A stretch of 64,000 bases of DNA, taken from positions 186,001 through 250,000 of the forward strand of contig NZ_JAMXOD010000001.1 in NCBI RefSeq assembly GCF_024721305.1, given 5' to 3'. How positions within the stretch are numbered: position 1 is the stretch's first letter; each line of letters begins with the position of its first letter. Positions 13,557 through 53,634 of this stretch are shown here, in pieces. This stretch comes from Aequitasia blattaphilus (GTDB lineage: Bacteria; Bacillota; Clostridia; Lachnospirales; Lachnospiraceae). Made by a program: the position numbers and the translations under genes. Below the pieces are notes generated by a model. That model had not been told where the DNA came from. It ran no database searches and saw nothing but the letters and a program-made list of their open reading frames with translations.

Positions 13557-13564
13557 GTGAATAA

Positions 13565-15208: not shown

Positions 15209-15425
15209 AAATGCCATTAATTAATATGGTATCTAATTCACTGGCACTGGTATCAAGTACAGTTCGAAAACTGTTTTTTGTTGTGCCAATTTTTCGGTTC
15301 CCTTCATCACTAAGGTCTTAAACAGTTTGTCTGCATCCTGACCAATTGCTGTGGCTGCCTCATTCCCTCTAACGGCTCCTGAATCAACATATGAATGAAA
15401 TTTATAGTTGATAGATTCAAAGAGC
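15209..15425 (-). pseudogene. YbaK/EbsC (Cys-tRNA(Pro) deacylase) remnant
   Basis: Read on the minus strand, this stretch encodes INYKFHSYVDSG, IGQDADKLFKTLVMKG and VFELYLIPVPV, which match the N-terminal half of YbaK/EbsC trans-editing proteins. A stop follows PVPVN, but a one-base shift restores the expected ELD. The 5' end is cut near the dispersed palindrome at 15430. It is therefore truncated at both ends and frameshifted. Confidence 0.65.
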
Positions 15426-15429
15426 AAGA

Positions 15430-15458
15430 TACTTCCGTGTAAATTGTGCACGGAAGTA
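15430..15458. repeat. dispersed palindrome, copy 1
   Basis: ACTTCCGTG and CACGGAAGT are inverted around a ten-base spacer. The copy shares the flanks AGCAAGAT and AGTAAATAGACG with copy 2 at 17450. Both are followed by a fragment starting ATGATAAAAATATT. Confidence 0.8.
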
Positions 15459-15490
15459 GTAAATAGACGGTCTACGAAGGGAGTTTTGTT

Positions 15491-15527
15491 ATGATAAAAA
15501 TATTGTGTGCCACGGCAATAGCCGCTA
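15491..15527 (+). pseudogene. 5' stub of a low-molecular-weight protein tyrosine phosphatase gene
   Basis: ATGATAAAAATATT followed by GTGTGCCACGGCAATAGC reproduces, with a few bases missing, the MIKILMVCHGN start of LMW-PTP enzymes. It is out of frame and stops being recognisable where the methyltransferase gene ends on the other strand. The same stub with the same leader occurs at 17512. Confidence 0.5.
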
Positions 15528-28798: not shown

Positions 28799-30495
28799 TG
28801 AAGTTGTTTGAAGAAGAGAAATTCAATAGCAAATCCGCTCAAAAGTTACTATTTATCAGAAAGGGCTATCAACCTCAGAAGTATCTAAATAAGAAGGAGA
28901 GACGTCAGTGGAATAGACTTAACACCAGAAAAAAACAGCAGTATCTAGAAAAGGCTACGGAGAACTATTTAAGAAAGAATCAAAAGCCATCAAGTAAGGG
29001 TTTTCCAACTGGTGAAGAGGTTACGAATCAGACAGCTACGGTCAATAAAATAGCGGACTACCCAAGACCTGATGACATAAGTCACGTAGAAGCGACGATT
29101 GCTAAGTCGGCTACTAAGTTAGTTGCTATGGATAACATTAAGAAAGAGCGCCAAGTAGAACTCGGACGCGAAGAAGTCATTGAGAAAATGATGGCAGATG
29201 ACTTTAAAAAGGCAGCAAGTGCTACTGGCGGAGTGGGAGAAGGTATTGCCATGGTGGCAGGACCGAAAGCAAAGTTCGCCATGGCGGCAGTGGTTCCAGT
29301 ATTCTTGGCGGTATTAGTAGTGGTTATGCTATCAGCGAGTCTCTTGCTGCTGGTAATTGCAAGTGCAAGGCAAAGCGATGGGGGAAAAAGATTTGTAGAG
29401 GTAGCTTTAGCCGAAGAAAAAGAAGGGGATCAGAAAGGCGGCGATAAGTACTGGTCTTGGTTTGGGTTTAAGAAGCGAGAAGAATGGTGCGCTTGTTTTG
29501 TCAGCTGGTGTGCTGACCAGTGCGACTACATAGAAAAGGAGATATTCCCAAAGAGCGCTTCTGTTGCTCAGTATAGAAGCTGGTATGATAAGCGAAATCT
29601 CTACATGAAAAAAGATGGATACACACCAAAGGCAGGAGATTTAATCATCTTTGAAAACGGCATGAGTCATATCGGTATCGTTCAGTACGTAAAAGGCAAT
29701 CAAGTAATAACCATTGAGGGGAATACGGGTGACATTGTGGCAACGCGAACATATCCCTTATCTTACGGTGGTATTTCTGGTTATTGTGTTCCTAACTATC
29801 CGGAAGAGTTTAGCGACTTTGAAGGAGAAACGAACGAGGAAATCACTTGGAACTTTTTAATAAGCAAAGGGTTTAGTCCAGAGAGTGCTGCTGGGATTAT
29901 GGGAAATCTAAAGCAAGAGTCTGGTCTAGACCCGAAGTGTTATCAACAGGGCGGGGGACCTGGAAGAGGAATTGCGCAGTGGACAGTAGGGTCCAATCGT
30001 TTCAAGAACTTAGAAAGCCGAGCTACAAGTATGGGGACCACCTGGGATACCATCGAACCTCAGCTAGAACATTTATACTTTGAATTAAATGGCGGTGATG
30101 CGACAACAACTTTTATTCTAAACCGAGACTATGGCGGTTTAGCTGGTTTTAAATCAATGACTGATGTAAACAAAGCAACACTAGCTTTTGAGAAAGCCTT
30201 TGAAAGAGCCGGCATACCGGCAATGGAGAAACGATATAAATATGCGATGGAGTTTTATCAGAAATATAAAGGGGGTGGACCTATGGGAAAGCTATTATTT
30301 CCCTACGTTGTCTACGAGGTTCAAACATATGATATGGATATAGGAGTTGCAGAGAATCCAAGGTATCGGTTAATCGCTGGATTTTTAGAGAAGCGAAATG
30401 CCGACCGCTTTATGCGACAAGTAGTGAATAAGGATAAGATTCAGGTGAAACTTATGGATTATAGTGGAAAGAAAGCAGGTGAGGAAGAATGTTAG
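28798..30495 (+). CDS. CHAP and lysozyme-domain cell wall hydrolase (CD1108 family, VirB1-like)
   Basis: The 565-residue protein has a basic cytosolic start, one transmembrane span (AVVPVFLAVLVVVMLSAS, about residues 160-190), a CHAP-type amidase/peptidase domain with catalytic cysteine in EEWCACFVSWCADQ and histidine in GMSHIGIVQY, and a phage-tail-type lysozyme domain (SKGFSPESAAGIMGNLKQES, GIAQWT). It should open the peptidoglycan for the transfer channel. After the lysozyme domain comes a 70-residue tail beginning MGKLLFPYVVYEV. An ATG preceded by GGGGGTGG at 30283 could start that tail as a separate protein. Confidence 0.88.
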   Translation: MKLFEEEKFNSKSAQKLLFIRKGYQPQKYLNKKERRQWNRLNTRKKQQYLEKATENYLRKNQKPSSKGFPTGEEVTNQTATVNKIADYPRPDDISHVEATIAKSATKLVAMDNIKKERQVELGREEVIEKMMADDFKKAASATGGVGEGIAMVAGPKAKFAMAAVVPVFLAVLVVVMLSASLLLLVIASARQSDGGKRFVEVALAEEKEGDQKGGDKYWSWFGFKKREEWCACFVSWCADQCDYIEKEIFPKSASVAQYRSWYDKRNLYMKKDGYTPKAGDLIIFENGMSHIGIVQYVKGNQVITIEGNTGDIVATRTYPLSYGGISGYCVPNYPEEFSDFEGETNEEITWNFLISKGFSPESAAGIMGNLKQESGLDPKCYQQGGGPGRGIAQWTVGSNRFKNLESRATSMGTTWDTIEPQLEHLYFELNGGDATTTFILNRDYGGLAGFKSMTDVNKATLAFEKAFERAGIPAMEKRYKYAMEFYQKYKGGGPMGKLLFPYVVYEVQTYDMDIGVAENPRYRLIAGFLEKRNADRFMRQVVNKDKIQVKLMDYSGKKAGEEEC

Positions 30496-30538
30496 AAAAG
30501 AGCTTGCGATATCTCATGAGGAAAGGAGAATGATGCCG

Positions 30539-31033
30539 ATGAAGGAATGGGAGATTCGTAGAAAGAAGAAATGCTTTATTCTAAAGATCTTAGTAGGGCT
30601 TATTGTAGTCATGGTAGCATTTGCTCTTATTATTGGAGCTATGATAAATCGTATCAACAGTAATCGAACAAAGAATTTAGAAAAGCAACGGGAGCGGCAA
30701 TCGAAGATTGAGGCGTTACAAGAAACACCCGTAATAGTGTCAGATCCAGAAGTAGAGGAAATCCATTATTCAGGCTTAGTGCTTTTATCATTTTTAAAAG
30801 ATGAACCAAGCCTGAATGAGTTTAAAAGTGAGTTAGAGCAGTATATTCGAGGCGCAGACTATTACGGTGAGTATACAGAAGTGATGATTGAGGGTAAAGA
30901 TGCTTACGACGAGGTTATTAAAGTACGCCGGTTCTATCTAACCCTTGATAATGAAGAGCAGTCAAGAATAGAAGGACTGTATGATGTGCAAGCGAAAGAG
31001 TACGTCTTTGGTTACTATGCAGGAGAGCGCTAG
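30539..31033 (+). CDS. single-span membrane protein of the transfer operon, unknown
   Basis: The protein of about 164 residues has a basic start (EWEIRRKKK), one hydrophobic span (ILVGLIVVMVAFALIIGAMI), a charged coiled stretch and an extracellular part of about 110 residues. In size and layout it resembles VirB8-like or conjugation accessory proteins, but I see no firm motif. Start could be ATG 30530 or 30539 behind AAAGGAGA; the frame is open from 30464. Precedes the probable oriT. Confidence 0.55.
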   Translation: MKEWEIRRKKKCFILKILVGLIVVMVAFALIIGAMINRINSNRTKNLEKQRERQSKIEALQETPVIVSDPEVEEIHYSGLVLLSFLKDEPSLNEFKSELEQYIRGADYYGEYTEVMIEGKDAYDEVIKVRRFYLTLDNEEQSRIEGLYDVQAKEYVFGYYAGER

Positions 31034-31039
31034 GCCATT

Positions 31040-31085
31040 TATTTGGCTAGCATGGGGGTATTAGGGGGCATCCCCCTAGCAAGAT
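31040..31085. other. probable origin of transfer (oriT)
   Basis: TAGGGGG and CCCCCTA form a seven-base stem with loop CAT (31062-31078), nested in GCTAG/CTAGC outer repeats (31046-31050 and 31076-31080). A GGGGGTAT precedes it. The site is in the only long non-coding gap of the transfer region (31034-31203), directly before mobC, where oriT lies in MOBP-type ICEs. The nick position cannot be read from the sequence alone. Confidence 0.6.
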
Positions 31086-31203
31086 GCCTTTGTATTACAT
31101 AATGCGTATCTTGTTTAAATCATAAAAACGTTCTCTCATATTGAGCGGGCATCCTCTTGGGCAAAGCGCGTAAATTATCTGCAAGTATAAAAGGAGGCGA
31201 TGT

Positions 31204-31545
31204 ATGGAGGCAAAAGTTAACCGAAAAAATAAAAGCATTACAATTAGGTTAGATGAGAGATCCTATAATCAGCTGCTTGAGAAAGCGCTTAGCTATGGTG
31301 GTCTTAGCGCATATATTCGTTTGTTGATTAGGAGGACAAATGAAGAAGTGATGAATGATTATCAGATACAATTTCGAGATTTGCGATATCAATTTTGCAA
31401 ATTGAGAGTTATTTGTGAAGAGTATATGAGAACGCTGGACGTTGACAATCAGAAACATTTTAAGGTAGTATTGGTTAAGATTGAAACGTTAGAAAAAGAG
31501 TTAAAAAATATATCTAGGGGTTGCAGAGAGAAAGTTAATTTGTAA
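31204..31545 (+). CDS. mobC: MobC-like relaxosome protein (ribbon-helix-helix)
   Basis: The 113-residue protein begins SITIRLDERSYNQLLEKALS, a ribbon-helix-helix DNA-binding start typical of MobC/relaxosome accessory factors, followed by GGLSAYIRLLIRR and a coiled C-terminal half. It would bind oriT and help the relaxase nick it. AAAGGAGGCGATGT precedes ATG. Unusually the relaxase gene is not next: two foreign genes of 3.3 kb lie between. Confidence 0.75.
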   Translation: MEAKVNRKNKSITIRLDERSYNQLLEKALSYGGLSAYIRLLIRRTNEEVMNDYQIQFRDLRYQFCKLRVICEEYMRTLDVDNQKHFKVVLVKIETLEKELKNISRGCREKVNL

Positions 31546-31601
31546 AGATGGATTAACTTAGAAATCAATGTGGCCTCTATTTGATTTAAAGGTGGGAGAA
31601 A

Positions 31602-33713
31602 ATGCTTAGCAAGATTACTTTACAAACAGATAGATTCAATGATACTGAGATTTCTAATTTAAAAGCAAAAAATTTTTTTTATGGCAAGAACGGAACAGGA
31701 AAAAGCAGTATTACAGAAGCGATTAGCACTCAGTGTGAAGATAATTATGATCTTCACATATTTCAGGGATTTAATCGAATTATTGAAGAAAACAACGGGT
31801 TGAATACAATAGCGCTTGGTATACAAAATGTTAAGCTTCAACCACTTATTAGTGAAAAGAAGAAGGATATAGAGAAGTTGGATGATGATCTTAAAGAGCG
31901 TAATGATAGTATAGAAAATACATTTACTATATATTCGAAAGAGCAGTTAAATTATAATCATTTGATTGGTGTAATTGATCGCTTTTTTTCGGCATCAGCG
32001 AGTGAGATTAAACGGGAGTATGTTGAACTTACTGGACCTAACTACAATAAAAATAACTTTAAAGAGGATGTGAAGAGTGCTGAAGAATTATCAAAGGAAG
32101 AATTATTTAAATACAAAACTCAATTTGAGCAGACATCCATAGAGGCTTCAGAAAAAATGAAGTTTGAGGCTCTAGAGGTTGACAGTCTTGTAGATGAGGT
32201 AAATGAGATTTTGACTACTGAGGTGGTAAAATCGGCTATTCTAAAGTTTGAAAGTACTGAGAAAATGAATTGGGTTCGTGAAGGTTTGAATTTTTACGGT
32301 AATGAAAATGAAGAAATATGTTTATTTTGTGGTAATAAGATTGAAGCGACGCGCCTAGATGATTTGAATAGTTTTTTTAGTGAAGAAGTGAAAACGATAG
32401 AAAGCAAAATTCGTAATCTGTTAGAAAATATTTCCATTATGAAGAACGCGTTAAGTCAACAGAAGCGGGTTGAAAAGTCGAGTTTTTACCCCGATTTTCA
32501 TGGTGAGATTCCCACAATAAATGATCAAATTGATAGTGTGACGAAAGAGCATACACGTTTCTTGGAAGAGATAGAAAGTGCGCTTAAAGAACGTCAGAAA
32601 GATATTTTCATTTCTCAAAAAGCTCTTGTGTTATCGAAACCTTCAACTTACTCAGAAGTTGAGAAAATCTATTTAAGTCTGTATAAGAAAAACTTAAAAT
32701 ATGGAGAAACCTTAGACTCAAAAATAAAAGAGGCGAAGGACATGCTCCGTCAACATGAAGTGTCAAAAAGGCTTAAAGAATTTGATTATCAACAGAAGGT
32801 GAATGAGCTAAAGAAAACTGAGTCACTTCTTAATGAGGCAAAAAGTAAGTATGAGATGCAGAGTGGGAAGAGAGAAGAGGCAAAAAAGGAACTCCTAGCA
32901 CTTTTGTCACAAACTATCGACGAAACAGTGGCAGAAAAAAGAATTAATGAAGCTATAAAATCACTAGGAAATCAGTCGTTTACCTTGGAAGGAATAGAGT
33001 CTGAGCAACGAGGGCAGTATCAAGTAAAAAGTTATGATGGTACTGTTCGAAATATCGGAACATTAAGTACTGGAGAAAAAAATATAGTCGCTTTTCTTTG
33101 GTTTCTGAATAATCTAGAAAAGGCGAGGCAAACAGATTCAAAACCAAAGATAATCGTGTTTGATGATCCAATGAATAGTAATGATGATACAGTACAGTAT
33201 TTAATCATTACAGAAATACAAAAATTAATAAAGGATATAAGAGATGATCAGATATTTATATTGACCCATTGTACTCATTTTTATCTTAATGCAAGATATA
33301 ACTGGTGGCGAAATTCTAAAAAGGATACATATAATAAAACCACGTTTCATTTGAAAAGAGTTGGAAACAAATCATCTATAGAGTTAATCACGTCTGAGAG
33401 GGATGATATTAAGACCAATTATGATGCTCTTTGGAGGGAGGTTAAATTTTTATATGAAGAGCATAAACCCGATTTTATGATAAATCCTATAAGGCGAATA
33501 TTTGAAACTTATCAAAAATTCAATGGAATAGATGATTTATATAAAAATGACGCAGAGTCTCAGAAGTTATTCAATGTTAACTCTCACTCTATTGTTGATT
33601 TGGAGGCAGATCTAAATGGTAAAGACGAAGATGCGATAATAAGCAAAGTACGGCAAATATTTGAAGCAAATAATGCAGGGGAGCACTTTAGAACTTACTG
33701 GGGAGAAGTCTAA
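31602..33713 (+). CDS. SMC/Rad50-like AAA ATPase (AAA_13 family), candidate antiviral protein
   Basis: The 703-residue protein has an ABC-type head split by coiled coils: Walker A FFYGKNGTGKSS (residues 28-37 region), a zinc-hook-like CLFCGNK at C240/C243, an ABC signature LSTGEKN at about 488-494, Walker B IIVFDDPMNSND at about 517-528 and a switch histidine in FILTHCTHF. This is the AAA_13 layout shared with RloC/PrrC-type anticodon nuclease proteins. The C-terminal 120 residues (NPIRRIFETYQKF, NVNSHSIVD) are conserved-looking but an effector nuclease is not proven. GGTGGGAG precedes ATG. AT content is much higher than the ICE backbone, and the next gene follows one base later. A defence role is inferred. 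Confidence 0.75.
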   Translation: MLSKITLQTDRFNDTEISNLKAKNFFYGKNGTGKSSITEAISTQCEDNYDLHIFQGFNRIIEENNGLNTIALGIQNVKLQPLISEKKKDIEKLDDDLKERNDSIENTFTIYSKEQLNYNHLIGVIDRFFSASASEIKREYVELTGPNYNKNNFKEDVKSAEELSKEELFKYKTQFEQTSIEASEKMKFEALEVDSLVDEVNEILTTEVVKSAILKFESTEKMNWVREGLNFYGNENEEICLFCGNKIEATRLDDLNSFFSEEVKTIESKIRNLLENISIMKNALSQQKRVEKSSFYPDFHGEIPTINDQIDSVTKEHTRFLEEIESALKERQKDIFISQKALVLSKPSTYSEVEKIYLSLYKKNLKYGETLDSKIKEAKDMLRQHEVSKRLKEFDYQQKVNELKKTESLLNEAKSKYEMQSGKREEAKKELLALLSQTIDETVAEKRINEAIKSLGNQSFTLEGIESEQRGQYQVKSYDGTVRNIGTLSTGEKNIVAFLWFLNNLEKARQTDSKPKIIVFDDPMNSNDDTVQYLIITEIQKLIKDIRDDQIFILTHCTHFYLNARYNWWRNSKKDTYNKTTFHLKRVGNKSSIELITSERDDIKTNYDALWREVKFLYEEHKPDFMINPIRRIFETYQKFNGIDDLYKNDAESQKLFNVNSHSIVDLEADLNGKDEDAIISKVRQIFEANNAGEHFRTYWGEV

Positions 33714-33714
33714 T

Positions 33715-34869
33715 ATGGGCAATTTAAAACAAGAGATAGAGAATTTAATCGCACTAGAACAAGAGGGTGATTATTGGGACTTTAAAAGAGAATGGTATGA
33801 TAAACAACATCTACCCAATTTATTACATGATATCATTAGCATGGCCAACAACTTAGCTAATAGAGATTGCTATATTATAATCGGCGTAGATGAAGAAAAT
33901 GATTTTGATTTTAAGGATGTATTAGGAGACCCAAATAGAAAAAATACCCAAAAATTAGTTGATTTCCTAAAGAACAAAAAGTTTGCCGGTGATATGAGAC
34001 CGATTGTCCATGTAGAAACGATAGAATACGCAAGGTCATGTATTGACATAATTGTTATAAAGAATAGTAATAAAACGCCGTTTTATTTGAAAGAAGCATA
34101 CAAGGGAGTATTTGCAAATCAAATCTACACAAGGATTCAAGACACAAATACACCACTTAATTCTTCAGCAGATATTGATAAAATAGAGTGGCTTTGGAAA
34201 AAAAGATTTGGCTTAATTCAAACTCCAATTGAGCGAATTGAGTCATTTTTAGAGGAACCAAATGCTTGGGTAAATGGTCCGAACGGAGAAATGCAAAAGT
34301 ATTATAAGCGTTTTCCGGAATATACATTAGTGTATGATGACGCTGCCGATGGGCGCGATGGATATACCTATTATCTTTTTTCTCAATATAAAAGCAGACC
34401 ATATTGGAAAGACATTAAAGTTTATTATCATCAAACTCTTTTAATTGAAGTTGATGGTGTAGCGCTAAATGGTGGTGTATACATGACCCCTTGCCCAGAT
34501 ATAGATGGGATTTGTTTTAATGAATATTATAGTTGGGATATTCCATACAGGTATATGGTTAAAGGGTCGTTCAAATATAAATTAAGTGAATTTCTTTATC
34601 ATAATGAGTGGTCTTATGAAGCAAAAATAGCGCGCGATAATTTCTTTTCAGTTATTCTAATATTTGAAACTGAATTGGAAAAGGACTCATTTATAGATTA
34701 TGTCATTTGTAATTGGGAAGAAAGAGATAAATACAAGGATTCGATACATATTGCATCTATACCAGAGATGAAAGGTTATAATGTAAATGTTTTTAAAAAA
34801 GAGTATGAAAATGCACTAATACTAAAGTTAATGTTACATGATTTTAGAAGAGAAAGGGGACTCTCCTAA
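33715..34869 (+). CDS. Schlafen AlbA_2 domain protein, partner of the SMC-like ATPase
   Basis: The first 170 residues match the AlbA_2 (Schlafen core) domain: DYWDFKREWYD with the family glutamate/lysine, then DIISMANNLANRDCYIIIGV, and TPFYLKEAYKGVFANQIYTR. AlbA_2 domains bind nucleotides or nucleic acid. The remaining 210 residues, rich in aromatic residues, are not recognised and could be an effector. The ATG begins one base after the ATPase stop, so the genes are tightly coupled. The stop overlaps the relaxase ATG. One counted line is 27% G+C against 50% in the relaxase, showing foreign origin. Confidence 0.75.
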   Translation: MGNLKQEIENLIALEQEGDYWDFKREWYDKQHLPNLLHDIISMANNLANRDCYIIIGVDEENDFDFKDVLGDPNRKNTQKLVDFLKNKKFAGDMRPIVHVETIEYARSCIDIIVIKNSNKTPFYLKEAYKGVFANQIYTRIQDTNTPLNSSADIDKIEWLWKKRFGLIQTPIERIESFLEEPNAWVNGPNGEMQKYYKRFPEYTLVYDDAADGRDGYTYYLFSQYKSRPYWKDIKVYYHQTLLIEVDGVALNGGVYMTPCPDIDGICFNEYYSWDIPYRYMVKGSFKYKLSEFLYHNEWSYEAKIARDNFFSVILIFETELEKDSFIDYVICNWEERDKYKDSIHIASIPEMKGYNVNVFKKEYENALILKLMLHDFRRERGLS

Positions 34870-36167
34870 TGGCAATCATCAAACTAGACCACCTTAAAGA
34901 AGGTAGCGGTCGAAACCCATCCGCCGGTCTCTATGGTGCCATTCTCTATATTCTAGATATGCAACAGGGGCATAATGGGGAAAAGACCAAAGGCGGATTA
35001 CTCATTGGCGGCAATGCTGGAATCACTGCAGATGAGATTTATGAATTAATGATAGAAACGAAAGAGTTTTTTGGAAAGAACTGGGGCAGAGTGGCTTATC
35101 ACTTTGTCCTTTCTTTTCCCCCAGGGGAAGTAACGGCAGAAGTAGCCCATGAGCTAACGGGCCAGTTTGTAGACCGCTACCTAGGGGACCGCTACGATAT
35201 CGTATTTGCCACTCATGACGATCAGGAACACAAGCATAGTCACATCCTATTTAACAGCCTTTCCAGGAATGGTTATAAATACCATTACAAAGCCGGTGAC
35301 TGGGAAAAGGACATGCTGCCGATTCTTAATGGCATCTGTATCGCGAACGGTTTAAGTTATATTACTCTTCAGGATAAAGAGGGGCGATTAAATAGGCGCA
35401 CTACAGGAAAAGAGAAGTGGCAAAAGAAGCAAGGTCACAAGAGCTGGGACAACCTTATCCGCCAAAACCTTCAAGAGGCGATGCAGGCAGCAGGGGACTA
35501 TAATGAATTTTTAAAGATATTAAGGGATAATGGTTATCAGATTCGAGAAGGAAATAGTAGCCAGTATGGTCCCTACTTTTCTATCCAGTGTGAAGGGATG
35601 GGAAAAGCTAGGCGAAACTACCGATTAGGCGCAGGCTACAGTGTGGAGGATATAAAGAAGCAAATTGATAACAAGGAATTATTAAAGGACATTGAGGAGA
35701 TGCTCTCGGACGTTAGTACGTACCGGGAGCTTTTGCATTCCCGGTATTATGGAAAACGCCTGCTTAGACTACCTGCCTATTATTACCGAAAGTGTATCTT
35801 CCTCTGTAGCTGGAATAATCGTTTGTTTGCTACCTATCCAAAGATAAAGCCTTGGAAGTACCGGAAGGACGTAAAGGAGCTAGATAAGCACATGGACAGT
35901 CTGCAATTAACCGATAAATATAAAATCCAAACACGAGAGCAGCTTATACAGCTAAAAGAAAGCTTTGAATTAAAAAAGAAAATGCTGAATGCAGACTACC
36001 GGCAGCTTAAGAAGGAAGGAGGTGAGGAGCAAAAGAAAGAGTGCTTGCAAAAGCTAAAGGAAGTGAGGAAGGAGCTTCGGACCATCCGGTTTATTAGTGA
36101 CACTTATTCGGTAAGCGAGGAAAGTCTGTTTAAGGAGTGGAAGGTGGAAAAGGAACGTGTTAGGTGA
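34869..36167 (+). CDS. relaxase/mobilization nuclease, MOBP type
   Basis: The 432-residue protein has the relaxase three-histidine motif HDDQEHKHSHILFNS starting near residue 116, a likely catalytic tyrosine in the N-terminal ILYILDMQQGH or AGLYGAILY region, and FGKNWGRVAYHFVLSFPP before it. It nicks oriT and pilots the strand into the recipient. The C-terminal 200 residues are basic and coiled. Its start overlaps the end of the AlbA_2 gene by one base, so relaxase translation now depends on the inserted cassette. A short gene follows. Confidence 0.92.
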   Translation: MAIIKLDHLKEGSGRNPSAGLYGAILYILDMQQGHNGEKTKGGLLIGGNAGITADEIYELMIETKEFFGKNWGRVAYHFVLSFPPGEVTAEVAHELTGQFVDRYLGDRYDIVFATHDDQEHKHSHILFNSLSRNGYKYHYKAGDWEKDMLPILNGICIANGLSYITLQDKEGRLNRRTTGKEKWQKKQGHKSWDNLIRQNLQEAMQAAGDYNEFLKILRDNGYQIREGNSSQYGPYFSIQCEGMGKARRNYRLGAGYSVEDIKKQIDNKELLKDIEEMLSDVSTYRELLHSRYYGKRLLRLPAYYYRKCIFLCSWNNRLFATYPKIKPWKYRKDVKELDKHMDSLQLTDKYKIQTREQLIQLKESFELKKKMLNADYRQLKKEGGEEQKKECLQKLKEVRKELRTIRFISDTYSVSEESLFKEWKVEKERVR

Positions 36168-36178
36168 AAGGAGAAGTT

Positions 36179-36424
36179 ATGGCGACAACGAAAGAATTAG
36201 AAGATTTAATCAGAAGGATTCAAGACAGAATTGTATCTATGGAGAAGTTTATTGAGGAACGAGGGCTCACGTCAGAGTACATAAAATACGTAGAAGAGCT
36301 CTCAGCAAAGAAAGAAGCAATTAAGGATCAGGTAAAAGAAGTAGAAAGGGCAACGAAAAGAGAAAAGGATATTGAGCTACCGAACCGCAACCTCCGTCAG
36401 GGAATAAGCCTATGGTTGAAGTAA
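36179..36424 (+). CDS. small coiled-coil protein of the mobilisation operon
   Basis: An 81-residue, highly charged, almost wholly helical protein (TKELEDLIRRIQDRIVSMEK, VKEVERATKREKD). AAAGGAGAAGTT precedes ATG 36179; an in-frame GTG at 36164 overlaps the relaxase stop. The 3' end overlaps the next gene by 13 bases. Probably a relaxosome or coupling accessory factor; no family recognised. Confidence 0.6.
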   Translation: MATTKELEDLIRRIQDRIVSMEKFIEERGLTSEYIKYVEELSAKKEAIKDQVKEVERATKREKDIELPNRNLRQGISLWLK

Positions 36425-37320
36425 AAACGGAAGCCGGTCGGTTTCTTAAAACCAAAGGCAACCTGTTTAAAGGAAAGTCAGAGGAAGAGCGAGAAGCCAT
36501 TAAGCGAGAAATCCGTACCGGTTTTGAGCATGGGCTAAGCGAAGAGCAGATACTGCTTTATGCAACCAGTGATTATAGTTCCTTGCAGATGCAGGCGATT
36601 CGTGTAGCCATCGAAGAAGGGATTCCTAAGTCCTATATCTTAGAAAAGATTGCCTTAAAAAGCAAAAGCCCGGAAGCCATGCTCGAATCTAAGATTCAGT
36701 ATTTTAACAGTAAGGCAGGTGTTAAAAATCCAGAGGTTGTTAATGGTGCTTATATCCAGAAGATTCATGCCCAATTATCTCTTTTGGAAACCAGAATCGA
36801 TACTCAGCAGAGCTTCTTTGACCAGATCACCCAGCGGTTGGAGTTAGAGAATACTCAGTTAAAAGAAGAGCTGCAAGTAACCGCTGCTGAGAATAAAGTC
36901 TTGAAAGAGCAGCTATTACTTAGCGACCGGCAAAAGGGAGAGGAGAGCCTAAGAGTTCAGGACTACGAAAGAAAATGTAATCATTTAAAAGAACAGCTAA
37001 GTGCTTTAGAGTCTAGAAACCAAGTCCTTGAAAGGGCGAGAACAGAAAGGGAAGAAACGCCCAGAAGAAAACGACAGAGCCTTTTCTTTTGTAGGAAGCG
37101 GGAGTCTCTACCTGATTGGTTTTTAGAGGTCCTTGTGACCCCAGGGTTTTCCCTTGAACAGATGAGCCTCTTAACAGAAGCCTATCATGCAGGAATTAAA
37201 AGAAACATCTTACTAAAGCTAGCCAGTCCAGAGATAGAGGCGAGCCACATGAAACAAGTTATAGGCATGTTTGTGAAAGGAGGTGAGAAAGAAGGGAGTG
37301 AGATAAATGCCACCAAGTAA
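36412..37320 (+). CDS. coiled-coil mobilisation-region protein, unknown
   Basis: The 302-residue protein has a helical N-terminal part with short repeat units (LSEEQILLYATSDYSSLQMQ, AIRVAIEEGIPKSYI), a long central coiled coil (about 125-215) and a C-terminal repeat-like segment (FSLEQMSLLTEAYHAGIKRN) that resembles the last part of the VirD4 protein encoded next. The basic RRKRQSLFFCRKR stretch sits between. Its end overlaps virD4. A scaffold between relaxosome and coupling protein is a guess. Confidence 0.6.
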   Translation: MVEVKTEAGRFLKTKGNLFKGKSEEEREAIKREIRTGFEHGLSEEQILLYATSDYSSLQMQAIRVAIEEGIPKSYILEKIALKSKSPEAMLESKIQYFNSKAGVKNPEVVNGAYIQKIHAQLSLLETRIDTQQSFFDQITQRLELENTQLKEELQVTAAENKVLKEQLLLSDRQKGEESLRVQDYERKCNHLKEQLSALESRNQVLERARTEREETPRRKRQSLFFCRKRESLPDWFLEVLVTPGFSLEQMSLLTEAYHAGIKRNILLKLASPEIEASHMKQVIGMFVKGGEKEGSEINATK

Positions 37321-39571
37321 ACGGCAAAAGGTCAGTTGGGGGATTAGCTGGATCATCATCCTTATATTCTTTTTGTATGTAGCGTATTGCTTATCCGGAC
37401 TATTTATGGTACCAGGAGTGAATCTTGAAACCTACGATAAGATAGCGCTACAACTCTTAACCCATCCGTTAGAAAAGTCCTGCTGGAATGACAAAAGTAT
37501 GCATTGTCTGGGTGTTGCTCTCTTTGTCTGGTTCTTAGCAGCTCTTTGGCATTACTCTACACTTCATGACTTACGCATCGGAGAAGAGCATGGTACTAGT
37601 AAGTGGGGCAGCATAAAGAAAATAAATCGTCGTTTGGCAAGTCTGGTGACTTGTCATTTTTTGTGTTTTTCTTACAAACGCCCCGGGTCAGAAAACCGTG
37701 TTCTGTCAGAAAGCTTGCGGGTTTCTTACGATACGAAACACACCAAGCTTAATAATAACCTACTGGTCATTGGGGGCTCTGGCTCAGGGAAAACAGCCTA
37801 TGTAGTCATTCCGAATCTTCTAGCCAACTACGGCAGTAACGTATATACGGATCCGAAAGGAACGTTAGCTGAGGAGTGTGGCAATTATCTTATGTCTATG
37901 GGAAGGCGCGTGCTATCGCTAAATCTTGTAGACATGAACCAGTCTTGCCGGTATAACCCTTTCCGGTATCTAAGGAAAGCCAGTGACGTGAATAAGCTTG
38001 TCACCAACTTAATGGCAAACACCACCCAAGAGAATGCCAATCACTCAGACCCCTTTTGGGAAAAAGCGGAAAAGATGTATTTATCCAGTATCTTCTTTTA
38101 CGTCTGGACAGAGTGCCCCCGAAAGGAACATCGCCGGCTAGAAAATGGGGTAATTGAAAACGTGTATTTAGACCGTACCTTTCGCAGTGTGCTTCATCTA
38201 CTAAACGAAGCAAAGGTAAATCATGACCCTGAGGTTAAATCGCCTCTCGATGTCAGAATGAATAAGCTGGCAAGAGAAAAAGGAGAAAACCATCCGGCCG
38301 TTCGTAGCTATAGGCGCTGCGTAAGAGGAGCAGGCGACACCGTTCGTAGTATTATCGTATCCGCTAATGCAAGGTTTGATCCCTTTGATAATGAGGAGCT
38401 ACTGCGGATTCTTGATGGGGATGATATTGATTTACCATCCCTAGCAGCGGGATTTCATGGAAATACAGATATCAAAACCAGTCTCTTTTGTTGTATCCCC
38501 GATGACGACGATACCTATAACTTTATTCCAGGGTTACTCTATACCCAGCTCTTTCAGGAGCTCTACCGACAAGCCAGGCTAAACGGTGGTAAGTGCCCCA
38601 TACCGGTGGGCCTGTGGTTAGACGAATTCGCCAATATCAAGATGCCCGCCGCCTTTGAAAAGATCCTAGCCACTTGTCGTAGTCGGGATATCTATTGTGC
38701 CATTCTTCTACAATCCTTAGCCCAGCTGAAGGTTGCTTACCGAGAAGATAAGTGGGAAGGGGTCTATGGGAACTGCGATACCGTAGTGTTCTTAGGTGGT
38801 AATGAACCCTCGTCTCATAAGCACATGAGCGAGCAGGCAGGAGAAAAGACCATTGAAAAACGAAGCCAGGGAGAAAGCAAAGGTAGTCATGGATCGAGTA
38901 ATGCCAACTACGATGTAATGGGGCGACGGCTAATCTTGCCAGAAGAAGTTTCTATGCTTAAGGATGAATGCCTAGTCCGGATAAAAGGAGAGTATTCTGT
39001 AAAGGATAAGAAGTGGGACTACTACGGTAAGCATAAGAAGATCCGGAGCCAGATTGTAGCCTTTGGCACCTTTTCTCAAGAGATTCAGATTGAAAGAGAA
39101 GAGGACCGACTGGTAACCAAGGAACTGACAGAAGGGTTTACCCCTCTAGGAGAAAAAAGTAGAACCTATTATGAGCGTTGTCAAAAGAGCGGCGAGTCAG
39201 TGGAGTTATACGAAATAAGTAGGGAGTCTTTTCTGACCTATGATTTTTCAAAAAGCAAAAGTAAGACGGAAGCCCAGATGCTACTTTTCTTAAAAGGGGC
39301 TTACGACGAGAAATATGAGAAAAAGGAGAAATGGCTAGCTAAGGAAGAGCCTACCAAAGAACAGGTGATAAAGACTCCAGAGGATTTATTGGATTACGTG
39401 ATTAGTGGCGCCTTTTCTAAAGAACAAATGGAGGTTCTAGGAAGAGTTTCTTTAAAAAAGATTCCCTTCCAGAAACTAAAGCAGATTGCAAAGCCAGAGC
39501 TACCAGCAGAAAATATGGCTTTTGCTTTAAACCTATTAACCGAAATGGAGGATACATATGATTTTAATTGA
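37307..39571 (+). CDS. VirD4-like type IV coupling protein (CD1115 family)
   Basis: The 754-residue protein has two N-terminal membrane spans, Walker A GGSGSGKTAYVV near residue 156, the DPKGTLAEE motif, Walker B VGLWLDEFANI and the typical YGNCDTVVFLGGNEPSSHKHMSE and QSLAQLK segments. It couples the relaxase-DNA complex to the transfer channel. An extra C-terminal region after about residue 650 carries helical repeats (TPEDLLDYVISGAFSKEQME) like those of the preceding protein. AAGGGAGTGAG precedes ATG. Confidence 0.92.
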   Translation: MPPSKRQKVSWGISWIIILIFFLYVAYCLSGLFMVPGVNLETYDKIALQLLTHPLEKSCWNDKSMHCLGVALFVWFLAALWHYSTLHDLRIGEEHGTSKWGSIKKINRRLASLVTCHFLCFSYKRPGSENRVLSESLRVSYDTKHTKLNNNLLVIGGSGSGKTAYVVIPNLLANYGSNVYTDPKGTLAEECGNYLMSMGRRVLSLNLVDMNQSCRYNPFRYLRKASDVNKLVTNLMANTTQENANHSDPFWEKAEKMYLSSIFFYVWTECPRKEHRRLENGVIENVYLDRTFRSVLHLLNEAKVNHDPEVKSPLDVRMNKLAREKGENHPAVRSYRRCVRGAGDTVRSIIVSANARFDPFDNEELLRILDGDDIDLPSLAAGFHGNTDIKTSLFCCIPDDDDTYNFIPGLLYTQLFQELYRQARLNGGKCPIPVGLWLDEFANIKMPAAFEKILATCRSRDIYCAILLQSLAQLKVAYREDKWEGVYGNCDTVVFLGGNEPSSHKHMSEQAGEKTIEKRSQGESKGSHGSSNANYDVMGRRLILPEEVSMLKDECLVRIKGEYSVKDKKWDYYGKHKKIRSQIVAFGTFSQEIQIEREEDRLVTKELTEGFTPLGEKSRTYYERCQKSGESVELYEISRESFLTYDFSKSKSKTEAQMLLFLKGAYDEKYEKKEKWLAKEEPTKEQVIKTPEDLLDYVISGAFSKEQMEVLGRVSLKKIPFQKLKQIAKPELPAENMAFALNLLTEMEDTYDFN

Positions 39572-39674
39572 AATCAAGAAGGAAAACACCAGTGAAAAGA
39601 GAAAGTCAAATCTAGAGGCTTATTATCAAAACCTAAGAAAAAAGAACCGCAAAGGGGGAAAGAAGCATGTTTAA
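39558..39674 (+). CDS. very small basic protein, 38 residues
   Basis: ATG 39558 lies inside the end of virD4 after ATGGAGG, and the frame reads MILIEIKKENTSEKRK through a strongly basic tail, stopping inside the start of the DUF5688 gene. Overlap at both ends is the style of this operon, so it is probably translated. No family recognised. Confidence 0.5.
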   Translation: MILIEIKKENTSEKRKSNLEAYYQNLRKKNRKGGKKHV

Positions 39675-40617
39675 TCAGTTTGCAAAAGAGGTAGAAGAAA
39701 GGTTACAGGCGCATTTTGAAACCAATGGGCTAGATGTTCAGGTTCAACTAAATAGCGTTCTAAAAGTAAATGATGTTAATCGCCAAGGTATCATTATTAA
39801 ACCAGAAGATAGTAAGGTGGCGCCGATTATCTACTTAGAAGAATTTTATGAAGACGTTCAAGACGGTAGCAAAGATATGGACAGGGTTATTGATGAACTT
39901 GTGGGCATCTATGAAGAGAACCGTGCTATGCGCGGACAGATCCACCTCGAGAATATCTTCTCCTTTAATCAGATCAAGAATGAACTTACTCTTTGCGTAG
40001 TCAACACGGCCAAGAATCAGGAGATGTTAAATGAAATCCCTTATGTGGAAATGGATGATTTATCAGCCTTTTGTAGAATCCCTATGATAAATAGTGAAGA
40101 GCAGCGGGGATTTATGAAGGTTACCTATGAACTACTAGATGCTTGGAACGTGGACTTTAACGAAGTCTATGACATGGCTATTTCCAATACCCATAACTTT
40201 AATGACTTTCGACTATATAGCATGGAAGACATTATTGGTGAAATGATGGGAAACGGAGCACCCCAAAACCTGCTTAATAAAGAGATGCACGAGAATGAGG
40301 GCATGTTTGTCTTAACCAATGAACCGAAAGTAAATGGCGCCACAGCGCTATTACGTCCAGACATTATGGAACAGGTTTCGGCAGTACTAGGCGGGGATTA
40401 TTACATTTTACCTTCGTCCTTGCATGAAACGATTTGTATCCGTAAAGAAGGAGCACCACCAGCGGCCGAGCTAGGTGAAATGGTGCGGGAAATTAATGCG
40501 ACTCAAGTAGACGTGGAGGATCGCTTAAGCGATCATATCTATGCCTACGATAGTAGGGAAAAGAAGCTTCATTCAGTAAGAGAATCCTTCTTACCACTAA
40601 AAGAACACAGCTTATAA
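39667..40617 (+). CDS. DUF5688 family protein
   Basis: The 316-residue protein shows the DUF5688 pattern, an ICE-associated family of unknown role: IIYLEEFYED near residue 57, TAKNQEMLNEIPYVEMDDLS, NSEEQRGFMKVTYELLD and the C-terminal YYILPSSLHETICIRK. It is soluble and acidic. AAAGGGGGAAAG precedes ATG. A G+C-rich terminator follows. Confidence 0.82.
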   Translation: MFNQFAKEVEERLQAHFETNGLDVQVQLNSVLKVNDVNRQGIIIKPEDSKVAPIIYLEEFYEDVQDGSKDMDRVIDELVGIYEENRAMRGQIHLENIFSFNQIKNELTLCVVNTAKNQEMLNEIPYVEMDDLSAFCRIPMINSEEQRGFMKVTYELLDAWNVDFNEVYDMAISNTHNFNDFRLYSMEDIIGEMMGNGAPQNLLNKEMHENEGMFVLTNEPKVNGATALLRPDIMEQVSAVLGGDYYILPSSLHETICIRKEGAPPAAELGEMVREINATQVDVEDRLSDHIYAYDSREKKLHSVRESFLPLKEHSL

Positions 40618-46838: not shown

Positions 46839-47033
46839 AATAAATATAGGCTCTGCCATTTTAGTTTTATGAAAGACAAAGAGTAGTCAAATGATTGCTC
46901 TTTTTTAATGCTTTTAAATGGTCGTTTGTGTGAAAATTGGTAAACGTCAAATCATCCGCCTAGTAGTTTTCTGAGTTTTGTGGCATACTTGAAAAAATTC
47001 CAAAAACTAACAGTTTTTTCGAGGAGGATTGCG

Positions 47034-47408
47034 ATGGATAAAATTACACATGAAATGCGCCTTATGCACTGGAAAACGATTGTTGAACAGTGTCAAGGTC
47101 GCCCGAGAAATCAATCAGCAAAGCAATGGCTTGCAGACCGGGAAATACCTGAGAAGTCTTATTATTACTGGCAACGAAAAGTCCGACAAGAAGTATATGA
47201 AAAATTGAATTCACCAACAGCAATACCAGCGGTACAACCCGATGCCAACATTTCCTTTTCAGAGATTCCGTTATCGTTTAGGCAGGAGTCATCTACTTCT
47301 TTTCAACCGGCAGCGATTGTGAAGACACAAAAGATAACAGTTGCATTATCTGATTCGATATCAGAGCGACTTCTTAATCAACTTCTACAGGCGGTGCATC
47401 ATGCTTGA
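47034..47408 (+). CDS. tnpA: IS66 TnpA accessory protein
   Basis: The 124-residue protein starts MDKITHEMRLMHWKTIVEQC and has the SAKQWLADREIPEKSYYYWQ region, the helix-turn-helix ORF1 product of IS66-type elements. GAGGAGGATTGCG precedes ATG 47034. It overlaps tnpB by eight bases, the usual arrangement. The gene looks intact. Confidence 0.85.
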   Translation: MDKITHEMRLMHWKTIVEQCQGRPRNQSAKQWLADREIPEKSYYYWQRKVRQEVYEKLNSPTAIPAVQPDANISFSEIPLSFRQESSTSFQPAAIVKTQKITVALSDSISERLLNQLLQAVHHA

Positions 47409-47756
47409 AGATGTAGCCGGTATTCGCCGTGTCGTAATCGCATGTGGTTTTGTTGATTTACGAAAAGGAATCAACGGATTGCTCAGATTGTTGGCGCCCG
47501 ATATGACCTGAATCCATTCGAAAAGGGCACCTTGTTTTTGTTCTGTGGCAGAAGGTCAGATCGCATGAAGGGGCTACTTTGGATGGGGAATGGTTTTTTG
47601 TTACTCTATAAAAGATTCGAAGACGGCTCTCTTTCATGGCCACGTACACAAGAGGAAGCGGTTGAATTAACAGAAGAACAATTCCACCATCTAATGCTTG
47701 GGCTAAATCCAGTTAATCCAAAGATTAAGGAAGTCAATCCTTCTAAAATAGCATAA
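47401..47756 (+). pseudogene. tnpB: IS66 TnpB, frameshifted
   Basis: ATG 47401 starts MLEDVAGIRRVVIACGFVDL, the normal IS66 Orf2 start. After GGATTG at 47476-47481 one G is missing; adding it restores ARYDLNPFEKGTLFLFCGRR and the rest of the protein up to 47756. As given, the frame stops after 36 codons. Everything else, including KGLLWMGNGFLLLYKRFE, is conserved. Confidence 0.85.
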
Positions 47757-47762
47757 AGTTTT

Positions 47763-48002
47763 ATGCAAAACAGAGAAATTTTCAGGCTCTTTTCCGAGAG
47801 AATAGAAACGAAGATTCGCACTGTAAAACGGATTATAGCAGTGCAAATCTCTTTGTTTCATACCACTAAAAAGGGACATTCTCGTACTTTGACACCTCTA
47901 CATATGGAGCGTTTATTGCAGTCTGTTGAGGTCTTATCTATAGGCACAATGACGAATATTCAGTATCGTGAAATTCGCTGTTTTCTATGTTTTAGAGTAT
48001 AA
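47763..48002 (+). CDS. doubtful 79-residue ORF inside IS66
   Basis: A frame from ATG 47763 encodes a basic 79-residue product with no known domain and no clear ribosome site. It fills the gap between tnpB and tnpC. It may be spacer that happens to be open. Confidence 0.2.
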   Translation: MQNREIFRLFSERIETKIRTVKRIIAVQISLFHTTKKGHSRTLTPLHMERLLQSVEVLSIGTMTNIQYREIRCFLCFRV

Positions 48003-48029
48003 TAAAAAACAGGAAAGGGGTGAACATTC

Positions 48030-49654
48030 ATGGGTCAAAAGTACACAGCTGAAGAATTGAATCAGTTCAGTAAACAAGAGCTTGTATTTTTGGTTTCTTC
48101 TTTACAAGGGCAAATGGAAACGATGAATGAAAATCTCGAAAAGCTGATTGAGCAGGTGCGGATTGCAAATCAGCAAAGGTTTGGTCGCCATACGGAAAAG
48201 TTAGATACTATGGATGGACAGCTCTCCTTTTTAACGAGGCAGAGTATCTCTCGGAGGAAAATGCCGAAGAGCCGGACATTGAGGAAGTATTACAAAAAAA
48301 GCCACGTGCGAAGAAACAAAAGGGTAAGAGAGATTTAGATCTTCAGGATTTCCCTGAAGAACTGCAGGAACATGATGTGCCCATGGAAAAGCTGGATGCA
48401 CTATTCGGCGAAGGCTGTTGGAGAAAAATGACAGTCGAGGAATACAAGCGACTACGTTATGAACCGGCATCATGGACGGTGGAACGACATCGAGTACATG
48501 TTTATGTTGGAACCGGCGGAGAACATCAGGATGAATTTCTGCGTGGAACACGTCCGAAAGACCTTCTTCGAAACAGTATTTTAACACCATCACTTGGCGC
48601 AGCAATCATGAATGCAAAGTATGTGAATTCCATACCGGTTGCTCGCATTGAAGCGGAGTTTGAACGAAATGATGTCCATCTATCCCGTCAGACTATGTCG
48701 GATTGGATTATTAAATGTTCAGAGCGTTACTTTGAACCGTTGTACCAGAGACTACGTGAAAAACTTTTAGAATTCCCTGTAGCCCAGGCAGATGAAACAC
48801 CGGTAGATGTCATTCGTGATGATCGCAGTGCCGGAACTCCAAGCTACATGTGGGTATTTCGGAGTGGAGAATTCTACAAAGAGACTCCGATTGCCCTGTA
48901 TAAGTATCAAAAGACTCGTAACAGCGAGCATCCCAAAGAATTCTTCAAGAATTACAAAGGCGTCGTGGTTACAGATGGATTGAGCCAATACCATAAACTC
49001 GACAGGGAGCTTGAAGGATTTACAAATGCGAATTGCATGGCTCACGCAAGGCGAGATTATGCAGATGCTGTAAAAGCATTGGGAAAGAGCAATCCGGATG
49101 TAGTAAAACGCTCCATTGCTTATCAGGCACTGGCTCGAATCAGTAGCATCTATAAACTGGAGGGAACGCTATCGGACATACCGGCAGAAGAACGGCTGGT
49201 AGAAAGACAAGCCACAATCAAACCATTGGTTGAGGAGTATTTCACATGGATAAAAGAGAGATTGTCCGATACGAGCTGTTTACCGAAAGGGAAAACAGCT
49301 GCTGGACTTAACTATAGTGTCAATCAGGAAAAGTACCTAAAGGTGTTTTTAGAAAATGGAGACGTACCAATTGATAATTCAGCATCTAAACGAAGCCTTC
49401 GAACTTTTTGTGTCGGAAAAAAGAATTGGATTTTTTGTAATTCGATTAAAGGTGCACAAGCAAGTGCAATCGTGTATAGCATCACAGAAACCGCCAAGTT
49501 GAATAATCTAAATCCTTATTACTATCTTCAATATTTACTGGAAGAGATACCGAAGCTGATTGCGGAAGACAGAACTATCGATAATTTAAAACTGGATACG
49601 CTGCTTCCGTGGTCAAAAGACCTTCCGGAGCAATGCAAAAGTAAACGCCGCTGA
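48030..49654 (+). pseudogene. tnpC: IS66 TnpC transposase, frameshifted
   Basis: ATG 48030 after GGAAAGGGG starts MGQKYTAEELNQFSKQELVF, and the ORF2-like leucine-zipper start continues to GQLSF. At 48228-48232 there are five Ts where six are needed; restoring one gives FFNEAEYLSEENAEEP and leads into the catalytic part (QADETPVDVIRDD, GVVVTDGLSQY, CMAHARRDY and the glutamate near DNSASKRSLR). The IS66 C-terminal domain with YYYLQYLLEEIPK is intact. As written the transposase cannot be made in one piece. Confidence 0.88.
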
Positions 49655-49772: not shown

Positions 49773-52700
49773 TTATGCTACTGCGCCGTAGCGTGTGTAC
49801 ACATATTCGTAAATCTGTTGACGATACCCTGAGATAGCCATTTCATCATAGCACTCTGGCAAGTCTGCCCATAACGTGTCACGAATCAGGTTATCAATTT
49901 CTGCTTTTGTTTCTTGCTTATCAGTCCAATGGTCAAGTTCTGCGATCTTAGACTTAATATTTTGCAGCAACGTAGCAGCTACTTCTTTTAACTTCTTAAT
50001 ATCGTTTTTGCTCAAGTCATCTCGGAACAGCATATCATAAAGGGATAATTCTTCATCACTTGTAAAGCCTTCACGAGCATAGCGCTGTTCTTCTTGGTTC
50101 ATCTGATTAGCCAAATCCATTAAATCCATAAAGGTCTTTTCAATATTAGCACGGTCTTGTTCACTATTATAATCTGTAATAATTTGCTGATACCTCTCAT
50201 AATAATTGATACGGTCTGGATTAGAGAACAACATCATATCCAGCTTTTGCTGAATTACTTCCTCCAGGTCTTTCATCACAAGATTTTTCTTATGTACCTT
50301 AGCAAATTCTCTGCGAAGTAAATCAAAATCAATAGCACTAATATCAAATCTGCGCGGTTCTTCACGCACCATCATAGGCGTATGTTGTATTTCTACATAG
50401 TCACTTATGATTTTATTAATTTCAATCATAAGGTCAGTGGTATTCGTGTGCTTACGCTTCTTCTGCAATTCAGAGAATATCGCTACTATCGCTTCATATT
50501 CTTTTCTTGTAGCGCCGGTTACATCATCACGGTCTGTATATTTCATCAAACGAATTAGTTCTGATGCATATGTACTGAAGGTCTTTTTATCCTCTACAGT
50601 TCCGCAGACAACATTGGCAGCTTCTTGCAAATATGATAGTTTCATAAAGTCATAAGCATCAATCAATAGCTGCAGGTCGAAGTCATTATCTGCTAAGAAT
50701 GATTTAGCCTTCGCTATAGTATCCATAATTCTTGCAATTAGCTCAGCCTTATCAATGGTAGGGTCTGTCTCGCCATTACCACCAACATTGGCTGTATAAT
50801 CCGCTAGTGCCTTTCTCAAGGCTTTCACGATACCAATATAATCAACAATCAATCCATTGCTCTTACCTTCGCTTACACGGTTTGCACGTGCGATGGTCTG
50901 CATTAAGGTGTGTGCTTTTAAAGGCTTATCCAAATACAAACAAGACAAGCACTTTACATCGAAGCCTGTGAGCCACATCGCACAGACAAAGACAACACGA
51001 AGAGGATTCTTTGAATCTTTAAATTCTTTATCCAATTCACGCTTTTCCATCTTTGCACGATGATATTTGATATCCAAGTCCCATTTCTTAAAAGTTTGGA
51101 TTTCATTTTGTTCTTGGCTGATAACCACAGCCATTTCTGTTTCTTCCATCCACTTAAGCTTACGCTCCAATTCAAGAGCTTCTTGCTGCGTAGCATTTTT
51201 TATATTTTCTTTTAGATTTTTTATTTCTTCTTTCCAGTATTCCTGTACATAGTTGTACATACGAACACAGGTAACTTTATTCAGACAGACAAACATTGCT
51301 TTACCGCTTGTCCATAAATCAGAGTAGTGCTGTACAAAATCGTGAGCTATAGATTTAAGTCTTGGTTCTGCAGTAAGCAAATGGATTTCCTTTGCAAATT
51401 CTGCTTCAAGTTTATCTTGTTGATCTACATCCAAATCTGCATTCTCGATAGCATCCAAAATCTTATCAGAGATTTCCGGATTACGCAGGTCGAGGATTTT
51501 CTCACCACGGTTTTCATAATAAAGTGGTACAGTCGCACCATCTTCAACAGCACGTTTGAAATCATAAACAGAAACATATCCACCAAAGGTACGGGCAGTA
51601 ATGTTATCACTGGATAATAACGGTGTTCCAGTAAAACCAATACGAGCAGCGGTAGGCAATAACTTAACCATATTATCGGCAAAGATGCCATATTGGCTAC
51701 GATGTGCTTCATCAGACATAATTATAATGTCATGATCAGGATAGATTGGTTCTTCGTTGGGTTTATTGAATTTTTGAATTAATGTAAAGATAAAGCTTGG
51801 GTTGCCGTGCAGTTTACGCACCAAGTCATCACCACTTGAGGCGATGAACTGAGACGCCTTGATATTCTTTCCAAGCAATCCACAATTTTCAAATGTATCA
51901 CTAATCTGTGAGTTTAATTCTTCACGGTCCGTTAATATAACGAATGTCGGAGAACCTTCAAACTTTCTGCGTATCTTCTGTGCAAGGAATACCATTGAAT
52001 AACTCTTACCAGAGCCTTGCGTATGCCAGAACACACCAAGTTTTCCGTCATTCAACTTTCTATCCGCATAGGCTTTCATTGCTTCGTTTACACCAAGGTA
52101 CTGATGGTTACGAGCAAGTATCTTCGCTGTGTGACCATTAGAGTGGTCAAAGAGAATAAAGTTCTCAAACAAATCCAGGAAATTCTCTTTTTTGCAGATA
52201 CCACGGAGCATAGTTTCAAGAGCTACACTTCCTTGGTCTTCCTCTACGAGACGCTTCCACTCATGAAAGAACTCATACTTACCGCCCAGCGTGCCAACCT
52301 TTGCCTCTGTCCCGTTAGAAAGCATTAGGAATGCATTGTAATAGAACAAATGTGGAATGGTATCTTGATAGTCGGTATAATTATCATCATAGGCATTCTG
52401 CACATCCACCGTATTTTTCTTTAGCTCTACAAAGAGCAAAGGAATACCATTTACAAAGCCCACAATATCAGTACGGCGTCTATAGAGATCTCCATGTATC
52501 TTTAATTCCTTAATTGCAAGAAAATGGTTGTAGTCCGGATTATGAAAGTCGATAACGGTTGCTTTCTTAGTTTCATTCTGACCGTTCGGCTTTTTTACAG
52601 TCACAGGGATACCATCACGGATAAGAAAATACTTCTCCTCATTCACCTGTAGTAAAGAGGACGTAGAAAGTCTGTTCTCAAGAACTTTCTGTGCCTCTAA

Positions 52701-53630: not shown

Positions 53631-53634
53631 TAAG

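Follow-up and report, generated by a model that had tools for sequence, protein, structure and literature searches.

Layout of the Locus

The DNA considered here, a 64,000-nucleotide stretch of the Aequitasia blattaphilus genome referred to as the window, carries an integrative conjugative element in whose mobilization module two genes, encoding an RloC-like AAA_13 ATPase and an AlbA_2 Schlafen protein, lie between a mobC-like gene and the relaxase gene. On the plus strand, the module runs from a probable origin of transfer (oriT; 31053–31121) through the mobC-like gene (31204–31545, 113 aa), the ATPase gene (31602–33713, 703 aa), and the AlbA_2 gene (33715–34869, 384 aa) to the relaxase gene (34869–36167, 432 aa; PF03432, E 8.4e-28). 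A single base (33714) separates the ATPase and AlbA_2 open reading frames (ORFs), and the TAA stop codon of the latter overlaps the relaxase ATG in the TAATG at 34867–34871; the two genes now run as one operon with the relaxase start overlapping. The ORFs and the TAATG confirm in these respects an earlier note on this DNA.

That note also had the two genes splitting mobC from the relaxase, which is correct as to position and as to the relaxase, but the upstream gene is only mobC-like: it has no significant family match, its assignment draws on its position and ribbon-helix-helix look, and a NikA-like match of its counterpart in a related element falls short of the cut-off. The reported G+C contrast is real (33.0% for the ATPase gene and 32.1% for the AlbA_2 gene), although the relaxase gene stands at 43.6% rather than 50% (44.0% for the VirD4-like gene); 18 of 55 sixty-base lines are at or below 30%. 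As the mobC-like gene is also low in G+C (33.3%), the AT-rich block begins there rather than at the ATPase gene. A search of 30000–36500 against Rfam returned no structured RNA up to E 0.1, and promoter and terminator scans stayed at or near chance (20 found vs. 18.6 expected, and 5 vs. 3.0, respectively).

Comparison With Related Elements

A relaxase search of 299 genomes of the family yielded 33 places in 22 genomes, of which two are the window element, one, in a congener, encodes a relaxase 94% identical to that of the window (the sister element), and 30 are distant (27–40% identical). The sister element matches the window backbone at 71.5–82.7% DNA identity on either side of the cargo slot, and the 69-base block at 31053–31121 is 93% identical; between this block and the relaxase ATG (31122–34868 in the window), however, no part of the window DNA aligns with the sister element, and the alignment resumes exactly at the ATG (34869–39788). 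In place of the window cargo, the sister slot holds its own mobC-like gene (33% identical, E 8e-9) and genes for an AAA+ ATPase and a subtilase, which PADLOC identifies as IetA (236.5 bits) and IetS (118.9 bits), respectively; the window cargo has no IetA-IetS match in PADLOC. IetAS is an experimentally tested anti-phage defense system.

In the sister element, 296 nt separate the end of the cargo from the relaxase gene, in contrast to the TAATG overlap in the window element. Translational coupling to the relaxase is thus not common to both known slot occupants. Co-translation of the window cargo with the relaxase through the TAATG is possible, and expression timed with transfer, as the earlier note proposed, would be conjectural. 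In 28 of the 30 distant elements, a gene of 84–141 codons stops at a point that ranges from 29 nt past the relaxase start to 42 nt short of it. By eye, these small genes resemble mobC (two were tested, of which that of L200 matches Pfam MobC and that of L182 has no match); the remaining two elements (L190 and L193) have a 117-aa gene in between. Given that a mobC-like gene abuts the relaxase in those 28 elements, where the site is accordingly empty, the multi-kilobase insertion is confined to the close lineage in this sample. Defense cargo near the mobilization region is nevertheless not unique to the slot, since in two more elements of that congener, whose relaxases are 40% identical (L182:2874–7749 and L183:3318–8629), the mob genes are immediately preceded by genes for a methyltransferase, an Mrr-type nuclease, or a twin-HATPase protein.

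The 69-base block that bounds the slot on the left, comprising a G/C hairpin and an imperfect inverted repeat that ends in GCGTATCTTG, is probably the oriT, as its recurrence suggests. The core GCGTATCT[TG]G was found upstream of the relaxase on the sense strand in 21 of 31 loci and on the other strand in none of the 31 (at one locus, L208, only 272 bases were searchable), and a simple GGGG...CCC hairpin pattern precedes the core in 17 of the 21. The DNA fold energy of the block is not unusual (z -0.80). In the sister element, an additional ORF (228 aa; L179:10058–10744), which belongs to no known family, lies just upstream of the block.

The RloC-Like ATPase

The earlier description of the first cargo gene product as an SMC-like AAA_13 ATPase with a zinc hook is borne out, as AAA_13 (PF13166) covers residues 12–688 (E 2.4e-85) and a CLFC motif occupies residues 240–243 (32319–32330). 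The protein also matches the PADLOC single-gene candidate family PDC-S06 (PDLC04897) with 760.6 bits. Among the papers found to mention it, this family is termed an unpublished candidate (PMC11811056), appears among phage defense candidates (PMC11514479), and is entered beside PrrC as a separate entry (PMC11878078). A solved-structure search with the single ATPase sequence gave only chance-level matches; with a profile, it gave the ATPase core of Rad50, SMC, AriA, and others.

Conservation was assessed in two alignments, namely A1 (20 rows including the window protein) and A3 (49 rows: the window protein and 48 viral-contig relatives). The latter, used for conservation only, was drawn from at least 73 viral-contig loci with distant AAA_13 proteins that were reached by an alignment query, 60 full-length ORFs having passed the filter and 48 having been aligned. 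The ABC motif residues of Walker A, signature, Walker B, and switch His (N30, G33, K34, S489, G491, E492, D521, D522, and H556) are invariant in A1, and in A3 these motifs and the CLFC cysteines are invariant or nearly so. Both hook cysteines, C240 and C243, are invariant across all rows of A1 and A3 and are predicted to bind zinc.

RloC is defined by ABC motifs, a CXXC hook, and a C-terminal Arg-X3-Glu-X36-52-His in which Ser often precedes the His, and mutants of this triad are inactive (PMC2610378). The purified protein requires its own ATPase and linear DNA (PMC3874168), and the nuclease domains of RloC and PrrC are HEPN domains (PMC3710099). In the window protein, a putative anticodon-nuclease triad, R631-X3-E635-X26-H662, lies at 33492–33587, with S661 directly before H662. 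R631 and E635 are present in all 20 rows of A1 and in 46 and 45, respectively, of the 49 rows of A3; a His stands in the H662 column in 16/20 and 28/49 rows. Among the other rows of A1, the Glu-His spacing is X28 in four close relatives, X35 in one, and X38–X46 in ten, four rows having no His. H662 is only the putative catalytic His, and H695 is an alternative, because H695 is conserved in 18/20 rows of A1 and 49/49 of A3. The ATPase may accordingly be read as a short-spacing RloC relative, not a proven RloC.

Relatives of the ATPase are present in 168 plasmid records, 11 of them covering at least 80% of the query, and no close relatives of the ATPase or the relaxase and no exact oriT core were found on viral contigs. 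Several relatives adjoin restriction-modification (RM) or anti-restriction genes, including HsdR (L067), ArdC and methylases (L069), and type II RM (L070), type III RM (L224), and HsdR/S/M (L226) genes, and one lies beside the BREX genes for PglZ and BrxL (L225). Two others, L032 (at a contig end) and L223, have no clear defense neighbor.

The AlbA_2 Schlafen Protein

The second cargo gene product matches SLFN_AlbA_2 (PF04326) over residues 17–149 (E 1.4e-9; 39.0 bits vs. a cut-off of 25.3), in line with the earlier note. Its C-terminal half, which the note had called unrecognized, has no Pfam match above the cut-off, but the PADLOC single-gene candidate family PDC-S50 covers residues 3–379 (413.4 bits). 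Across an alignment of 16 rows, E17 and D22 are invariant (16/16) and D59 occurs in 14/16; their spacings agree by count, not via structure, with those of the catalytic acids E205, E210, and D248 of SLFN13 (PMC5862951), the second acid here being Asp. Bacterial Schlafens can act against phages, according to a referenced statement in PMC12839542. A solved-structure search with the single sequence gave no match, and one with a profile gave a single weak AlbA_2 match (CbCash 9ylu, E 0.27).

Queried with the Schlafen protein, named genomes yielded 20 loci, one of which is a near-identical copy of the window element, and relatives were also found in 24 plasmid records. Neighbors were tabulated for 18 of the 19 other loci (L021, a fragment, was left out), and in 4/18 the Schlafen gene lies directly behind a restriction or Thoeris gene: a type III restriction-like gene with a 4-nt overlap (L014:2624–3758, where the Schlafen frame is split) or at 0 nt (L020:3183–4448, where only ResIII is above the cut-off), HsdR at 72 nt (L019:9974–11206), and Thoeris ThsA at 169 nt (L006:9983–11128). 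The PDC-S50 Schlafens at these loci are placed as if they were an add-on RNase to several defense systems.

Co-Occurrence of the Two Families

Among 392 genomes of the order, searched at E-values up to 1e-30 for the ATPase family and up to 1e-20 for the Schlafen family, the former occurs in 11, the latter in 12, and both in only two, the window genome and that of the same congener, which carry a near-identical element with the pair. An ATPase-only search of 398 genomes of the phylum found the family in 12. A set of 22 ATPase-positive genomes includes eight with an AlbA_2 gene anywhere, adjacent in two (the same element) and approximately 7 kb away in one (G671), while AAA_13 was found in 0/12 of the other Schlafen-positive genomes. 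No ATPase gene is present in the stretches examined around the 19 other Schlafen loci, several of which end at contig ends, and the pair was not seen in nine plasmid neighborhoods (five of ATPase relatives and four of Schlafen relatives).

The dedicated two-gene module proposed in the earlier note is therefore rejected at the family level, since the families are adjacent on a single element only in the genomes searched. Because their relatives adjoin various defense genes, both genes look like modular defense parts, and their combination looks like a cargo assembly that is possibly useful. At L224:2628–12253, the arrangement is different: an AlbA_2 gene of another kind lies on one side of a type III RM operon and a gene for an RloC-like ATPase on the other, and a DUF2130 gene is interposed.

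Interpretation and Rival Explanations

With moderate confidence, the segment 31122–34868, comprising the mobC-like gene and the two cargo genes, is read as an exchangeable defense-cargo segment within the mobilization module of the conjugative element, its left boundary being the oriT and its right boundary the start codon of the relaxase gene; the earlier proposal of defense cargo between mobC and the relaxase is to that extent supported as probable. The slot appears exchangeable because the sister element has the same oriT block and relaxase with IetA-IetS in between, and 28/30 distant elements have no such cargo. A defense role is suggested because both proteins match PADLOC candidate families, the ATPase has an RloC-type motif and hook, and relatives lie near RM, BREX, or ThsA genes. 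The AT-rich composition of the segment and the near-identity of the element, with an intact cassette, in two genomes of different species also favor the overall reading.

Several observations weigh against this reading. Only two slot occupants are known, both from one genus, and the exchange, together with any direction or mechanism assigned to it, would be read from two states only. The His of the H662 column is missing in 4/20 rows of A1 and 21/49 of A3, and the X26 spacing falls outside the published RloC range of X36–52. Two of the five plasmid neighborhoods of ATPase relatives (L068 and L071) lack a clear RM or other defense neighbor, and most neighbors of the Schlafen relatives stayed unclassified.

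Under the proposed mechanism, the two cargo genes would have been acquired separately and would now form one operon. By analogy with RloC, the RloC-like protein, with its Rad50-like ATPase and zinc hook, may sense DNA ends or damage, whereupon its C-terminal domain would cut tRNA anticodon loops, while the AlbA_2 Schlafen may cut tRNA or other RNA. Both putative RNases would then stop translation in infected or invaded cells, thereby protecting the element-carrying population, and the cargo would limit phages or competing elements. A more elaborate version, in which the mobC-relaxase gap is a dedicated exchange site that holds one defense module at a time, made with the relaxase, and in which the RloC-type ATPase and the Schlafen together form a double tRNase, arming the cell upon nicking and transfer of the element and guarding it against phages or rival elements during that transfer, is considered quite unlikely.

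Alternatively, the ATPase could be the sensor and the Schlafen the dedicated effector of a true two-gene system kept together by function. The one-base gap, shared strand, and similar G+C are consistent with such a system, as is L224, whose type III RM operon has an RloC relative on one side and a different kind of AlbA_2 gene on the other; it is nonetheless unlikely in view of the counts given above, namely adjacency in 2/22 ATPase-positive genomes (the same element), AAA_13 in none of the 12 other Schlafen-positive genomes, two shared genomes among the 11 and 12 of 392, and 0/19 other Schlafen loci with an ATPase gene nearby (several at contig ends). The location between oriT/mobC and the relaxase and the TAATG overlap might instead point to conjugation helpers that act on the DNA or RNA of the element itself during transfer (processing, surface exclusion, or relaxase-level control). 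This explanation is very unlikely, given that the sister element has other genes in the slot, 28/30 distant elements have none, and relatives are also located away from mob regions, in the vicinity of RM, BREX, or Thoeris genes.

Just as improbable is an addiction or competition module, only partly exclusive with exchangeable defense cargo, in which the two RNases stabilize the element or exclude rivals with little effect on phages: translation-stopping RNases carried on a recently moved mobile element could serve this end, but no antitoxin-like partner was found in the cassette, and the PADLOC candidate status concerns phage defense. Lastly, the restriction of the combination to a single lineage would fit passenger genes without present function, which is extremely improbable in that both ORFs are full length, their motifs are conserved, and they were carried intact through the recent transfer.

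Relation to Known Systems

The window ATPase resembles RloC in its ABC motifs, its coiled coil with a CXXC hook, its Arg-X3-Glu followed by Ser-His, its size (703 aa vs. 658–897 aa), and, as a family, the frequent placement of its stand-alone gene in the vicinity of RM or ArdC genes (PMC2610378; PMC3874168). It differs in the Glu-His spacing (X26 vs. X36–52) and in its operon with a Schlafen gene inside a mobilization module, and its RloC-type activity is predicted from its motifs. PrrC likewise combines an ABC ATPase with a C-terminal Arg-Glu-His triad, but is 341–416 aa long without a hook insert (PMC2610378); identity with PrrC is rejected on the grounds of size and the CLFC hook, and PADLOC gave no PrrC match up to E 1. 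The Schlafen has an AlbA_2 domain, acids whose spacings agree by count with those of SLFN13 (PMC5862951), and the PDC-S50 family match over residues 3–379, but has Asp as its second acid and a C-terminal half of its own without a Pfam family. Its position behind an RloC-like gene was not seen elsewhere among the loci examined. IetAS, likewise two AT-rich genes, fills this slot in the sister element, but its AAA+ ATPase and subtilase are unrelated to the window proteins, and it ends 296 nt before the relaxase.

Defense and anti-defense genes near plasmid oriTs present a similar picture of variable protective genes next to the oriT in a conserved backbone, whereas the window slot lies within the mob operon, between mobC and the relaxase (PMC11541004). 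A published description of a mobC-relaxase defense slot was not found at the level of titles and abstract openings, in a search whose scope excluded preprints and most subscription papers. Each part is of a familiar kind, and what is new is the position and the swap. Here, known defense-gene families reside within the mobilization operon. A sister element from the same genus allows a direct comparison, with its oriT block and relaxase shared and its defense system different. This makes testable both the exchange of defense modules at a fixed site by conjugative elements and the notion that the relaxase overlap ties defense to transfer. The locus also provides a naturally occurring operon that appears to encode two RNases presumed to halt translation, as well as a short-spacing RloC-like branch on which the catalytic His can be settled.

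Mobility and Further Content of the Element

The cassette-bearing element is 99.9–100% identical in two genomes of different species over the stretch that starts at 17445 and extends to the window's end at 64000, the congener copy being split over two contigs. To the left of 17445, the two genomes differ, and 5500–14500 gives only 66–76% matches in the congener. Recent transfer of the whole element is the simplest reading. When the relatedness of the two congeneric genomes was probed using a sequence from a different contig, no match appeared, which is uninformative by itself. Approximately 100 bases at 15416–15517, which match the congener's left end of the shared element (L212:18463–18568) at 85%, may mark a related integration target. 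On the minus strand at 49773–56639, the element carries type I genes for a restriction subunit of 1047 aa (REase_I, 523 bits) and a modification subunit of 606 aa (MTase_I, 954 bits), with two further ORFs between them, a stretch that is 100% identical in the congener. IS66-family transposase genes at 46980–49654 (425-aa ORF, NCBIfam IS66) adjoin position 49772, which corresponds to the end of a congener contig.

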